Shown: piece by piece, positions 34,212 to 45,881 of the stretch | Layout: each line of letters begins with the position of its first letter | Numbering within the stretch: the stretch's first letter is position 1 | Assembly: GCA_018812265.1 (NCBI GenBank) | Contig: JAHJDG010000166.1 | Location: 1 to 49,579, forward strand | Origin: a bacterium | Lineage (GTDB): Bacteria > Electryoneota > RPQS01 | Direction: 5' to 3' | Length of the DNA stretch: 49,579 bases | Program-made: the position numbers and the translations under genes | The notes under the pieces: model-generated | Databases searched by the model: none | What the model was told of the DNA's origin: nothing | Seen by the model: the letters and a program-made list of their open reading frames with translations, nothing else

Positions 34212-36893
34212 CTACCGTACCAGATGTAACGTCTTGGCCATCGAACCCGAACTTCCCTCCAGCCGATACACGTATACTCCGCTTGTCAGAGGAGTTCCCG
34301 CGTCGTTCCTGCCGTTAAAGAGGATCGTCATCTCCGATCCGGTGCCACGGCCCGCATACAGCGTTCGCACTTCCTGACCGAGTAGATTGTACACGCGTAA
34401 AGTGGTTACCGTATTCTGCGGAGCGACAAACCGGATTGCGGTCGTCGGATTGAAGGGATTGGGATAGTTTTGTTCAAGCGTGAGAGAAAGAGGGATGAAC
34501 GGCGACTCCGAGACAAACGAGATCGAATCCCCGAACCACGCAAAGAATCGAGCCAGCAGATCATCGCGCGTGTCCGTGTTCCCGACTCCCGAAACGCCTT
34601 CCAGACCGAAACTCAAGAACACGAATCGCCCCGTGCTGTACTCTCCGGCCACTCCGCAGACTGCCGCCGAGTCACCGGAATAGTGGAAGATGGTCTGTCC
34701 GTCTCCGATAACATACACGGAAGCCGGACTGTTCTGGTTCTGCGCGCCCTGCGATCCGATCAGATACGCTTCCACGCCGTCGGTAATGGGATTGCCTGCA
34801 TAGCCGTAGAATCGCCGCTGCTCCGTGTTCGGCGCTCGCAGCGAGCAGGCGAGTACATCGCTCAGGAAAGACGAACCGGACCCCAAATCGTCCGCGATAT
34901 CCTGGCCGGTCAGGAGCAGATGTCCGCCCTCGTTCAGATACGAACTCAGAACAGCTTGCTCGCGGAAGTCCAGCGTGGAGATCGAATCGTTGCCGGTGAA
35001 CCAGATGACCGTGGGCACATTGAAGATATCCGGTGCACCAGCCGCCGCGCAGTCCCACCAGCGAATGCGCAGATCGAAACTGTCCAGAGAAGAAAGATAA
35101 AAGGATTCGAACACATCTCCGTTATCGTCATCCACCAGCACCACGTCGGCAAACGGAATCACGAAGTCCACAGTCTGAGGTATCGTTCCCGGAGCCAGCT
35201 CGATCCTCCGCTCCGTGAGCATGAGCGGAGTAGGCGGGATCACGCGAATGGTGTTCATGCCCGCCATTAGTTTCCGGCTTCCGTTCGTATAGAGACTATC
35301 GGTGGTCTGTTCGACGAAAGTCCAGGCCGAGTCGGGATAGCCCTCGTGATAGAACTCCACGCGCACCGGAAACGGTGGAGGAACCGGTTCCTCGGTGGTG
35401 ATCGCACCCTCCACGTTCACGCCGCGCCGGATATCGAACGCCACCGTGATCGTGTCGTTGGCCGGATTTTCATCTCCCGTTGCGAACACCGAAAGTTGGA
35501 GGGGTGAGACCGGTGGTAGAGTCTCGTTATCCGGCAAGACCCAAAGCCGCGCGAACGACAGGACGGAGTCCGATCCCGCCTCCAGCTCCACCGCCATCGA
35601 ATCGAGGAAAGTCTGTCCCGATACGCGAGTGCGGATCGTCAGCGGCATCTGACTGGCGTTGAGGATTCGCGCCGCCACGATCAGCGAGTCTCCCGCCAGA
35701 TAGGGAAGAGTGGAAATCGGCGAAACGTACCCCACCGCAATCGCATCTACCACCGGCAGAGCATCAATGATCCGCTCCATTCCCATCCAACCCATGTACG
35801 CGCTGACCCACGAATGATCGTTGGTGACGGGATAGTTTCTTCCGGGAGGAATTCCACCGTCGTGGTCCGTGTCCAGTCCGATCAGCGAATCGGTGATGTA
35901 TACGGCGTTCCCCCAGTAGAGCGAATCCTGCGTAATCTGAAAGCACACGTGCTGCGCGTTGCAGTACCACGTGTTGAAGGCGTGGTTCCATGTTCCGACC
36001 GGCTGCCAGACGTCGAGCAGCGGCCCGTATTGCGTGAGCCATACCCGTCCGCTGTCGGGATACTCGCGGAACAGGCTTTCGCAGACTCCCCATAGAGCCG
36101 TTCCGCCGCACAGCGCCCACGTCTCGTTCTGATAGAGACGCTGCGGATTTGACTCAAACCATGTACGTAGACGGCGTGCTTCGTTGAGTGCGAACTGCCG
36201 CCAGTCGGCGCGGCCGCGATAGAGCGTGTGCGGATACAGCCCGCCGATTCCCAGACCTTGCGCGCACGGATTGAGTTGGCCGAGTCCCGTGCTGTTGGGA
36301 TCGTAGTCGAGCGGATGACCTACCACCCACAGCGCGCAACTGTCCGCATACCACGTCCATGTGGTATCATTGTAGGCTTGGCGGTAGATGCGTTCGGCCT
36401 CGAAACCCCAGCCGCAGTTGTGGATCGCATAATAGCCGCCGCCTTCGCGCCACGCCGGAAATCGCTGGCAGTAGCCTTGCGCGAGGCGGATCCGCGGCCC
36501 GTAGCTGGCCGTGTCTCCCGTCCACACCGCATATTGCGACCAGACTCGAATCGCTTCCTGTGTGTTGTCGGTTTCGATGATGCCGGCATCGCTGCCGCTC
36601 TCACCCTCGATCATTCCGCCACGATTCGCTCCCGTCTCCGTGTATTGCATGGACACGAGGAAATCGCACAGCAACCGATAGTGCGCGAAGTAGGCGATCT
36701 CATCCAGTGATGCGCGCTGATCGCGCGGGCGAATGAATCTTGGCTCACCGGCGGCTCCACTCCGCGCGAACTCCTCGGCTATTTGCTCGGGAGTCCAATA
36801 CGGCGTGGCCAGAGCGGTGGCTGCGATGAACATACCAAACACCAGTGCAGCCCACCGGAAAAATGAAAGTAGAGAAGTTGTTCCTGCCATCAT
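34212..36893 (-). CDS. Large secreted protein with T9SS-type sorting domain
   Basis: The protein has 893 residues from ATG 36893; a second ATG follows at 36890. A signal peptide (LVFGMFIAATALA) precedes a region of about 350 residues with repeated Trp/Tyr-rich helical segments (GGGYYAIHNCGWGFEAERIYRQAYN, TWYADSCALWVVGHP, NHAFNTWYCNAQHVCFQ). It has the look of an alpha/alpha-toroid enzyme, perhaps a polysaccharide-degrading or epimerase-like domain, but I cannot name it. Beta domains follow, then a module at about 600-780 shared with the 986-residue metallopeptidase. The sorting domain at the end reads QNYPNPFNPTTAIRF. It sits 26 bases after the broken epimerase gene. Confidence 0.8.
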   Translation of the reverse strand: MMAGTTSLLSFFRWAALVFGMFIAATALATPYWTPEQIAEEFARSGAAGEPRFIRPRDQRASLDEIAYFAHYRLLCDFLVSMQYTETGANRGGMIEGESGSDAGIIETDNTQEAIRVWSQYAVWTGDTASYGPRIRLAQGYCQRFPAWREGGGYYAIHNCGWGFEAERIYRQAYNDTTWTWYADSCALWVVGHPLDYDPNSTGLGQLNPCAQGLGIGGLYPHTLYRGRADWRQFALNEARRLRTWFESNPQRLYQNETWALCGGTALWGVCESLFREYPDSGRVWLTQYGPLLDVWQPVGTWNHAFNTWYCNAQHVCFQITQDSLYWGNAVYITDSLIGLDTDHDGGIPPGRNYPVTNDHSWVSAYMGWMGMERIIDALPVVDAIAVGYVSPISTLPYLAGDSLIVAARILNASQMPLTIRTRVSGQTFLDSMAVELEAGSDSVLSFARLWVLPDNETLPPVSPLQLSVFATGDENPANDTITVAFDIRRGVNVEGAITTEEPVPPPFPVRVEFYHEGYPDSAWTFVEQTTDSLYTNGSRKLMAGMNTIRVIPPTPLMLTERRIELAPGTIPQTVDFVIPFADVVLVDDDNGDVFESFYLSSLDSFDLRIRWWDCAAAGAPDIFNVPTVIWFTGNDSISTLDFREQAVLSSYLNEGGHLLLTGQDIADDLGSGSSFLSDVLACSLRAPNTEQRRFYGYAGNPITDGVEAYLIGSQGAQNQNSPASVYVIGDGQTIFHYSGDSAAVCGVAGEYSTGRFVFLSFGLEGVSGVGNTDTRDDLLARFFAWFGDSISFVSESPFIPLSLTLEQNYPNPFNPTTAIRFVAPQNTVTTLRVYNLLGQEVRTLYAGRGTGSEMTILFNGRNDAGTPLTSGVYVYRLEGSSGSMAKTLHLVR

Positions 36894-38260: not shown

Positions 38261-38289
38261 TTGACATTAATAGGTGTTCAGGGTATATT
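38261..38289 (+). promoter_or_regulatory. Strong sigma70 promoter of purF
   Basis: A perfect TTGACA (38261-38266) and TATATT (38284-38289) are spaced by exactly 17 bases. Transcription is expected to begin near 38296, only about 23 bases before the likely start codon of purF. No purine-regulator (PurR) or riboswitch site was recognised. Confidence 0.8.
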
Positions 38290-38305
38290 ACTTTGTTCTA
38301 CTTAT

Positions 38306-38311
38306 AAGGAG
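38306..38311 (+). promoter_or_regulatory. Shine-Dalgarno of purF deciding an AUC start
   Basis: AAGGAG is followed by a 7-base spacer and then ATC at 38319 in the purF frame. The nearest standard in-frame start, GTG 38274, lies inside the promoter spacer, upstream of the expected transcript. See the purF entry. Confidence 0.75.
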
Positions 38312-38318
38312 ACCCGCC

Positions 38319-39770
38319 ATCAGACACGCGGATCGTCCGCACGACCACTGCGGAATCATGGGTGTTTTCGGTCACCCCCACGCCGCCGAGCTTACCTACC
38401 TCGGCCTGTTTGCCCTCCAGCACCGTGGGCAGGAGTCAGCGGGGATTGTATCCTCCGACGGCTCTTCGCTGCACGCCGTGCGGGGGATGGGGCTGGTGGC
38501 TGACGTGTTCAATGACCAGCAGAAGTTCCAGCACTTGGCCGGAAACCGTTCCATCGGCCATGTTCGCTATTCCACGACCGGGGGATCCGTTGCCGGAAAC
38601 GTGCAGCCGCTTGTCGTCCGCACTAAGGACGGCCCGCTGGCGGTGGCTCACAACGGAAATCTGGTCAATGCTCGCGCCCTTCGTGTCGCTCTCGAAAGCG
38701 AGGGAGCGATCTTCCAGACCGATTCGGATAGCGAGATATTCGTTCACTTGATCTCCCGCTCCCGCGAGGCCACTCTGGCGGGACGGATCGCCGCCGCGCT
38801 CAGTCAGGTGCAGGGAGCCTACTCGCTGCTGTTCCTGACCAAAGAAGAAATGGTGATCGTCCGCGATCCGCACGGCTTCCGGCCGCTCTGCCTCGGCGGG
38901 AAAGGCGACGCCATCGTGGCGGCCTCCGAGACCTGCGCTCTCGATCTGACCGAAGCAACCTATGTTCGAGAAATTGAGCCCGGCGAGATCGTGACCGTCA
39001 GTGCGCGCGGGATTGATTCCACCACCTTCGCTGCGCCCTCGCTCCACATGTGCGTCTTCGAGCTGATCTACTTCGCCCGCCCCGACAGCCAGATCTTCGG
39101 TGGCAGTGTGGATCGCGCCCGCCGCAAACTCGGCAAGATTCTCGCCGAGGAAGCTCCCGCCGAGGCCGATATCGTGATCGCCGTCCCCGATTCCTCGAAC
39201 ACGTCGGCCTTGGGCTACGCGCGGGCCGGCGGACTTAAGTTCGAGCTTGGTCTCATCCGCAATCACTACATCGGCCGTACGTTCATCAATCCCTCACAGT
39301 TCATGCGCTCGTTCAACGCCCGCGTGAAATACAATCCCGTGGTGGGCGTGCTCAAGGACAAGCGGGTGGTGATCGTCGAGGACTCCATAGTTCGCGGCAC
39401 CACGCTCAAGAAACTCGTTGCGCTGCTCCGCCGTGTGGGCGTCAAGGAGATCCACGTCCGTGTCGCCTCGCCGCCGATTCAGTACCCGTGCTTCTACGGC
39501 ATGGATTTCCCCACCCGCAACGAACTCATCGCCGCCTGGAATTCCCCCGAGCAGATCCGCGAATATCTCGGTGTTGATTCGCTGAAGTATCTCTCCGTCG
39601 AGGGAATGCTGGCCGCCACCTATACCGATCCCGGCCATTTCTGCACTGCCTGTTTCACCGGTGAATATCCGGTGCCGCTTTCCGACGATCAAAGCGAATC
39701 GCTCTTCCAATACAGTGAAAAAGAGTGGGCCCGCGCCGAGCTCGAACGCGTCCTGAAGTCGTTCGAGTAG
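38319..39770 (+). CDS. purF: Amidophosphoribosyltransferase (unusual AUC start)
   Basis: The protein has 483 residues if started at ATC 38319. It makes 5-phosphoribosylamine from PRPP and glutamine, the first step of purine synthesis. An N-terminal propeptide (RHADRPHDH) precedes the glutaminase nucleophile Cys11 in HCGIMGVFG, close to the 11-residue propeptide of B. subtilis PurF. Further marks are LGLFALQHRGQESAGI and the PRPP loop VVIVEDSIVRGTT. Cysteines in LHMCVFELIYF, YPCFYGMD and CTACF match the [4Fe-4S] form. No ATG, GTG or TTG start is possible between the promoter and the catalytic cysteine, so either AUC is used or the sequence should read ATG. pgsA follows 17 bases later. Confidence 0.9.
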   Translation: MRHADRPHDHCGIMGVFGHPHAAELTYLGLFALQHRGQESAGIVSSDGSSLHAVRGMGLVADVFNDQQKFQHLAGNRSIGHVRYSTTGGSVAGNVQPLVVRTKDGPLAVAHNGNLVNARALRVALESEGAIFQTDSDSEIFVHLISRSREATLAGRIAAALSQVQGAYSLLFLTKEEMVIVRDPHGFRPLCLGGKGDAIVAASETCALDLTEATYVREIEPGEIVTVSARGIDSTTFAAPSLHMCVFELIYFARPDSQIFGGSVDRARRKLGKILAEEAPAEADIVIAVPDSSNTSALGYARAGGLKFELGLIRNHYIGRTFINPSQFMRSFNARVKYNPVVGVLKDKRVVIVEDSIVRGTTLKKLVALLRRVGVKEIHVRVASPPIQYPCFYGMDFPTRNELIAAWNSPEQIREYLGVDSLKYLSVEGMLAATYTDPGHFCTACFTGEYPVPLSDDQSESLFQYSEKEWARAELERVLKSFE

Positions 39771-44007: not shown

Positions 44008-44080
44008 GCTGGCGTAGCTCAACTGGTAGAGCAGTTGATTTGTAATCAACCGGTTGCGGGTTCAAGTCCTGTCGCCAGCT
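44008..44080 (+). tRNA. tRNA-Thr (anticodon TGT)
   Basis: The 73-base cloverleaf has acceptor GCTGGCG/CGCCAGC. Anticodon TGT (44041-44043) sits in loop TTTGTAA, so it reads ACA threonine codons. The T arm has GGTTCAAGTCC. The 3' CCA is not encoded (the sequence continues CTG). It corresponds in order to E. coli thrU. Confidence 0.97.
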
Positions 44081-44126
44081 CTGAGCGTTCGCTGTCAGAA
44101 CGTTTGTCCGCCGGCGGAGGCATTGA

Positions 44127-44209
44127 GGTGGCGTGCCCGAGTGGCTAAAGGGGGCAGACTGTAAATCTGCTGGCAGACGCCTACGGTGGTTCGAATCCAT
44201 CCGCCACCA
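44127..44209 (+). tRNA. tRNA-Tyr (anticodon GTA)
   Basis: The 83-base class II tRNA has a long variable arm and acceptor GGTGGCG/CGCCACC. Anticodon GTA (44161-44163) lies in loop CTGTAAA, and the T arm has GGTTCGAATCC. CCA is not encoded. It matches the position of E. coli tyrU. Confidence 0.97.
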
Positions 44210-44251
44210 CCGGAGATCCCTCTGAAGGGACGGTGAACATACTGTGAATTC

Positions 44252-44303
44252 GAGCCTTGCGATGACACTCTGGATGGACTGGTCATCAAAGGGGGCTCTT
44301 TTT
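44252..44303 (+). terminator. Terminator-like structure inside the tRNA operon (possible attenuator)
   Basis: An outer GAGCC/GGCTC (44252-44256 with 44294-44298) encloses an inner GATGAC/GTCATC stem (44261-44266 with 44282-44287). Five T residues follow at once and another T run a few bases later. It lies between tRNA-Tyr and tRNA-Gly. Confidence 0.45.
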
Positions 44304-44317
44304 CGCGCTTTTTTCAT

Positions 44318-44393
44318 GCGGGCGTAGCTCAGTTGGTAGAGCATCAGCCTTCCAAGCTGAGGGTCGCGGGTTCGAGTCTCGTCGCCCGCTCCA
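44318..44393 (+). tRNA. tRNA-Gly (anticodon TCC)
   Basis: The 76 bases include an encoded CCA. The acceptor is GCGGGCG/CGCCCGC. Anticodon TCC (44351-44353) in loop CTTCCAA reads GGA, with GGTTCGAGTC in the T arm. It matches the position of E. coli glyT. Confidence 0.97.
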
Positions 44394-44428
44394 AGGACCG
44401 TCAGGTATAGTCGTTTGCCAGAGATTCT

Positions 44429-44501
<73 letters not shown>

Positions 44502-44570
44502 CGACTCCCGATTTTGCGATCAAGTGTTTGAAATAGGAAAGCAGGCCATTTCTGAGGAGGATCATCAAGC

Positions 44571-45761
44571 ATGGCTAAGGCCAAGTTTGAGCGCACCAAG
44601 CCCCACGTGAACATCGGAACGATCGGCCACGTGGATCACGGCAAGACCACGCTCACGGCGGCGATCACCCAGGTGCTGTCCCTGAAAGGACTCGCCCAGG
44701 CGAAGAAATTCGAAGACATTGACAACGCGCCTGAAGAGAAGGCACGCGGGGTCACGATCAACGTCCACCACGCCGAATACGAGACCGAGAAGCGCCACTA
44801 CGCGCACGTGGACTGTCCCGGCCACGCCGACTACATCAAGAATATGGTCACCGGCGCAGCTCAGATGGACGGCGCGATTTTGGTGGTGTCGGCGGCCGAC
44901 GGTCCCATGCCCCAGACGCGCGAGCACGTGCTCTTGGCCCGTCAAGTAAACGTACCGGCGCTGGTCGTCTTCCTGAACAAGGTGGATCAGGTGGATGATC
45001 CGGAACTTTTGGAGCTAGTGGAAGTCGAGGTTCGCGACCTGCTGACCAAGTACAATTTCCCCGGCGACGAGATTCCCGTCATCCGTGGTTCGGCATTGGA
45101 AGCCTTGTCGGCTCCGACCGACGCCAAGAAAACGGAATGCATCACCCAGCTCATGGAAGCGGTGGATGGTTACATTCCCGAGCCGGTGCGGGCGACCGAC
45201 AAGCCGTTTTTGATGCCGGTCGAGGACGTATTCTCGATCACCGGCCGCGGCACGGTGGGCACCGGTCGTATTGAACGGGGCGTCGTGAAGGTCGGACAGG
45301 AAGTGGAGATCGTCGGACTGGGCGCTCACAAGAAGACCGTGGTGACCGGAGTGGAGATGTTCCGCAAGCTGCTTGACGACGGTCAGGCCGGCGACAATGT
45401 GGGTCTCCTGATGCGCGGCGTGGACAAGGAGGAAATCGAACGCGGCATGGTGGTGGTGACTCCGGGTTCGATCAAGCCTCACATGAAGTTCGAAGCTCAG
45501 GTGTACGTTTTGTCCAAGGAAGAGGGCGGACGCCATACTCCGTTTTTCAACGGCTATCGTCCGCAGTTCTTCTTCCGTACGACCGACGTGACCGGTTCGA
45601 TCAAGATGCCGGAAGGCGTGGAAATGGTCATGCCCGGCGATAACATCGTCATGACCGTGGAATTGATTACCGACGTGGCGATGGACGAAGGACTGCGCTT
45701 CGCGATTCGCGAAGGCGGCCGCACGGTCGGCGCCGGCGCCGTTACGAAAATTCTCGAGTAG
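44571..45761 (+). CDS. tuf: Elongation factor Tu
   Basis: The protein has 396 residues with a strong GAGGAGG ribosome site. The G1 loop is GHVDHGKT, followed by RGVTIN (effector region), DCPGHADY (G3), NKVD (G4) and SAL (G5). The beta-barrel domains have [13 protein letters not shown] and the C-terminal [10 protein letters not shown]. It delivers aminoacyl-tRNA to the ribosome. It is encoded after the four tRNA genes, as in the classic tufB operon, and is followed by tRNA-Trp and secE. The near-universal ARGITIN reads ARGVTIN here, a conservative change. Confidence 0.99.
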
Positions 45762-45784
45762 GCCGGAACCACGGCAAAGGATTT

Positions 45785-45804
45785 GGCTCGGCGGGAGCCG
45801 AGCC
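45785..45804. repeat. Hairpin between tuf and tRNA-Trp
   Basis: GGCTCGGC (45785-45792) and GCCGAGCC (45797-45804) pair perfectly around GGGA. It has no T tract, so it is not a normal terminator. It shares CTCGGCGGGA with the spacer before cysS (42174-42183). Confidence 0.65.
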
Positions 45805-45806
45805 AT

Positions 45807-45881
45807 ACGGCCGTAGCTCAATGGTAGAGTCCCGGTCTCCAAAACCGGTTGTTGGGGGTTCGAGTCCCTCCGGCCGTGCCA
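45807..45881 (+). tRNA. tRNA-Trp (anticodon CCA)
   Basis: The 75 bases include an encoded CCA end. The acceptor is ACGGCCG/CGGCCGT, and anticodon CCA (45839-45841) sits in loop CTCCAAA. It lies between tuf and secE, a common bacterial arrangement. Confidence 0.97.

Follow-up and report, generated by a model that had tools for sequence, protein, structure and literature searches.

Where does translation of purF begin when no usable canonical start codon precedes its catalytic residue? The gene lies on the forward strand of the window (the whole stretch of 49,579 nucleotides analysed here) at 38319-39770. Its product is an amidophosphoribosyltransferase of the Bacillus subtilis type, which, at 513 bits, clears the 350-bit cutoff of the equivalog TIGR01134 and has a short propeptide followed by an N-terminal nucleophile cysteine. 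In an alignment with the mature enzymes 1ao0 and 1gph this residue, Cys11 (codon TGC, 38349-38351), falls on their residue 1. The reading frame is open from a GTG at 38274-38276, just behind an in-frame TAG (38271-38273), to the stop codon at 39768-39770. As the preliminary description of this DNA had claimed, and as direct reading bears out, that GTG is the sole in-frame ATG, GTG or TTG between the TAG and Cys11, and it falls inside the promoter spacer, 5′ of the predicted transcript. A start at the next ATG (38358) would lose the cysteine, since this ATG already lies 3′ of the cysteine codon. Gene callers limited to ATG, GTG and TTG would give PurF a false N-terminus or lose the catalytic cysteine. 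Also encoded in the window, on the reverse strand (34212-36893), is an 893-aa protein whose C-terminal stretch, NYPNPFNPTT...LVR, resembles by eye a domain that serves secretion or sorting in Bacteroidetes-like bacteria.

An ATC at 38319-38321 is the candidate start, and as such it is strongly supported by comparison of sequences. A −35 element TTGACA (38261-38266) and a −10 element TATATT (38284-38289) are separated by a spacer of 17 bases, as had been claimed, and transcription is predicted to start near 38296, the seventh base after the −10 element, which would give a 5′ leader of about 23 nt (38296-38318). The leader contains a Shine-Dalgarno (SD) sequence, TAAGGAG (38305-38311). Seven bases separate its AAGGAG (38306-38311) from the ATC, which is in frame with purF and opens a ten-residue propeptide (38319-38348) before Cys11, in agreement with the coordinates given earlier. 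A hairpin or riboswitch in the leader was considered and dropped: the leaders of the five species with ATC fold into unremarkable structures (z 0 to 1.5), and an Rfam search of the promoter and purF start gave no match.

The class sample comprised 13 species; purF is present in 12 of them, and all 12 start regions were examined. TTGACA and TATATT are present without mismatch in all 12, the spacer being 17 bases except in G003, where it is 18. In 1.17 Mb of sequence from the family, TTGACA and TATATT were found 13 times at a spacing of 17 and never at spacings of 10-16 or 18-25. The promoter in the window is thus not a chance match, and the housekeeping promoters of this family have as their consensus TTGACA-17-TATATT, with TATATT in place of TATAAT.

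Is the ATC itself more than a coincidence? In five species, from four genera, an ATC stands exactly ten codons before the catalytic cysteine, behind AAGGAG or GGAGG. These are G000 (the genome of the window) and G001, which form one genus, and G009, G008 and G002, which belong to three further genera; their PurF proteins are 71-88% identical. The preliminary description had proposed aligning the purF 5′ regions of relatives. In this alignment none has ATG at the codon concerned and four have ATC, a recurrence which implies that the ATC of the window is not due to chance. The same description had left a choice between a non-AUG start and a C/G error that hides an ATG, and only the former has stood. 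A single C/G difference would indeed give an ordinary ATG, but the four other species carry ATC in separate assemblies (compared as assemblies, not reads), so that five assemblies would need to share an assembly or sequencing error in the same codon; such an error is excluded in practice, its probability being vanishingly small. Across codons −10 to 0 of the five species, only the ATC and the cysteine codon TGC are fully identical; no codon from −9 to −1 has more than two bases in common. An ordinary isoleucine codon would hardly be expected to stay so fully conserved in a fast-evolving propeptide. A scan of genome contigs gave PurF matches of at most 59% identity, none of them evidently of this class.

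Could translation instead begin at the GTG at 38274, or at some other upstream codon, on a longer transcript? GTG is a standard start, and the frame open from it is 498 aa long, but this codon sits between the −35 and −10 elements, lacks an SD sequence and is not matched by a GTG in G001 or G009. In G009 an in-frame TAA TAG adjoins the GGAGG, and from there to the cysteine there is no ATG, GTG, TTG or CTG, which implies that translation must begin inside the propeptide. The upstream ATG of G002 lies in the promoter spacer and the only such codon in G008, a TTG, lies in the −35 element, both 5′ of the predicted transcript; G002 purF lacks even the ATG that follows the cysteine. An upstream start is therefore very unlikely. 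No canonical start able to serve was found in any purF of the ATC group, and the same near-cognate codon occupies the same position in several species.

The SD sequences of these genes are unusually strong. The predicted SD/anti-SD duplexes of the five ATC purF genes have energies of −8.2 (in the window), −11.8, −10.2, −9.5 and −9.5 kcal/mol. For 428 conserved genes of the family the median is −4.6 kcal/mol, with 15% at or below −8, and the comparison is conservative because this background takes the best canonical start among several candidates per gene. The ATG-starting purF genes range from 0 to −7.4 kcal/mol. The 16S tail CCTCCT is present in five class genomes; the pattern was not found in G000.

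Starts at ATG are found in five other members of the family (G003, G004, G005, G007 and G010) and in two of the sister family (G011 and G012), where the same promoter is accompanied by a weaker SD sequence or by almost no leader. In G003 the ATG lies two codons 5′ of the ATC position, the SD sequence is weak and the leader is built differently; in G004 the ATG is at codon −7. For G005, G007 and G010 (loci L010, L011 and L009, respectively) the ATG lies only 9-10 bases past the −10 element; the predicted leader is about 3-4 nt, and the purF mRNA would be almost leaderless under the same promoter. The class thus holds a natural series in which the promoter stays constant and the start varies from AUC with a strong SD sequence, through AUG with an SD sequence, to an almost leaderless AUG. 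In the PurF tree G000, G001, G009 and G008 fall together (support 85/88), with G002 elsewhere and G003 beside them. On this tree, in which the nodes placing G002 and G003 are weak, the start codon would need two changes, either one origin and one loss or two origins. The ATG of G003, a species within or next to the ATC group, implies that the AUC is not indispensable.

These relatives bear on a further explanation, in which translation does start at the AUC but selection hardly acts on this codon: it would be a relic of a start site that migrated from an almost leaderless AUG, and would be tolerated thanks to the strong promoter and SD sequence. The ATG of G003 and the AUGs close behind the −10 element in G005, G007 and G010, under the same promoter, are in keeping with this explanation, as the start site evidently shifts across the class. 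An ATG is one base away and a GTG two, yet the ATC has stayed unchanged in five species whose neighbouring codons are saturated, and we consider near-neutrality unlikely.

Nor is AUC a general start codon in this lineage. Among 519 ORFs conserved between genomes, in 1.17 Mb of G000, G008 and G002, a screen for a strong SD sequence before a non-canonical codon, where no canonical SD-led start is present, gave no enrichment of ATC, with four cases against 1-8 for other codons. Two of the four are purF and the rest look like chance, leaving purF alone convincing among the 519; the screen did not list the purF of G002, so its result is a lower bound. This lack of broad use argues against an additional GAU-anticodon initiator tRNA that would read AUC efficiently and so remove any throttle. 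Such a pairing has some basis in vitro, where IF3 favours AUC read by GAU according to PMC10158994, but the sole initiator-like tRNA among the 30 typed loci of G000 has the anticodon CAU, and no GAU initiator was found among these loci, with 12 further matches not all typed. The chance of such a tRNA is, in our view, negligible. Other tRNA genes on the forward strand of the window form a cluster of ordinary arrangement (44008-45878), in which Thr, Tyr, Gly and Thr tRNAs are followed by an ORF starting MAKAKF, probably EF-Tu, and then by tRNA-Trp.

We conclude that the AUC at 38319 is very probably the purF start, read by the CAU initiator with the aid of a strong SD sequence, and that its presumed inefficiency probably acts as a brake on the enzyme of the committed step in purine synthesis. 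The consensus housekeeping promoter would supply an mRNA with its short leader, on which the ordinary initiator would be positioned by the SD sequence. With AUC opposite CAU, the third codon position is mismatched (C-C), and initiation should as a result be inefficient and subject to IF3 rejection; the strong SD sequence would compensate for this and hold the register. According to PMC10158994, weak pairing at the third base is excluded by IF3 in vitro; one assay yielded no product when AUC was combined with UAU or AAU anticodons, and the combination of AUU with CAU showed a reduction. The behaviour of AUC with CAU would be an extrapolation from these other pairs. A systematic study in E. coli, as cited in PMC13068326, found that ATC works as a start at a reduced rate, and the ATC start of Listeria rnhC is experimental (PMC13068326). 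In S. aureus, conserved non-canonical starts with extended SD sequences lower initiation, and the effect of the start codon of ccpN varies with the medium (PMC13009471). Given the reduced initiation of non-canonical starts, the IF3 data and the rate for ATC, the purF start is most plausibly a throttle for which the SD sequence compensates. The earlier suggestion that the AUC limits the level of PurF fits both the known behaviour of AUC and the unusual strength of the SD sequence. What the sequences show directly is the promoter, the SD sequence, the lack of canonical starts and the conservation of the AUC in four genera; we infer its use in the cell, its low efficiency, its dependence on IF3 and the reason for its selection. 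If this is true, purine synthesis would be throttled at its committed step through a start codon.

IF3 is itself encoded in this lineage, and a non-AUG start of its gene, infC, is usual in bacteria. For most species of the class infC has no canonical SD-led start, and at the infC loci of ten class genomes (L117-L126) the start is apparently non-AUG in nine. It is apparently ATC in G008 and probably so in G000 and G001, three genomes in which purF and infC would be alike in this respect. It is CTG in G007 and G010, and apparently ACG, behind GGAGG or AGGAG, in G004, G006, G009 and G011; G002 has TTG ATG. ACG is unusual as a start and would be unusually weak, and one literature search gave no report that could be tied to it. 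A tentative and rather doubtful extension would be that purF and infC, both lacking AUG, form a start-codon regulon of the class, in which IF3 activity or the free-ribosome pool sets purine synthesis in trans and so ties the supply of nucleotides to the capacity for translation.

Only a handful of bacterial genes are known to have fixed near-cognate starts. The start of infC is AUU in E. coli and Listeria and AUA in S. aureus. The purF start would share with it a near-cognate codon, conserved across species and open to discrimination by IF3, but infC is IF3's own gene and is autoregulated, whereas purF is metabolic. The pcnB gene of E. coli, with an AUU start (Binns and Masters 2002, as cited in PMC13009471), would be a parallel as a chromosomal gene whose expression an inefficient start codon keeps low, although its codon differs and its product is a poly(A) polymerase. 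The ccpN (AUA) and cvfC1 (AUU) genes of S. aureus likewise combine a conserved non-canonical start with an extended SD sequence; they are other genes with other codons, and their lowered initiation is experimental (PMC13009471), whereas that of purF is predicted from sequence. The same codon is used by rnhC of Listeria monocytogenes, whose ATC start is fixed in the species and experimentally confirmed (PMC13068326), in another gene. A literature search of open papers found no report of an AUC start of purF. Fixed near-cognate starts are thus already known, from infC, pcnB, ccpN, cvfC1 and rnhC; an AUC start of purF that extends over four genera is new.
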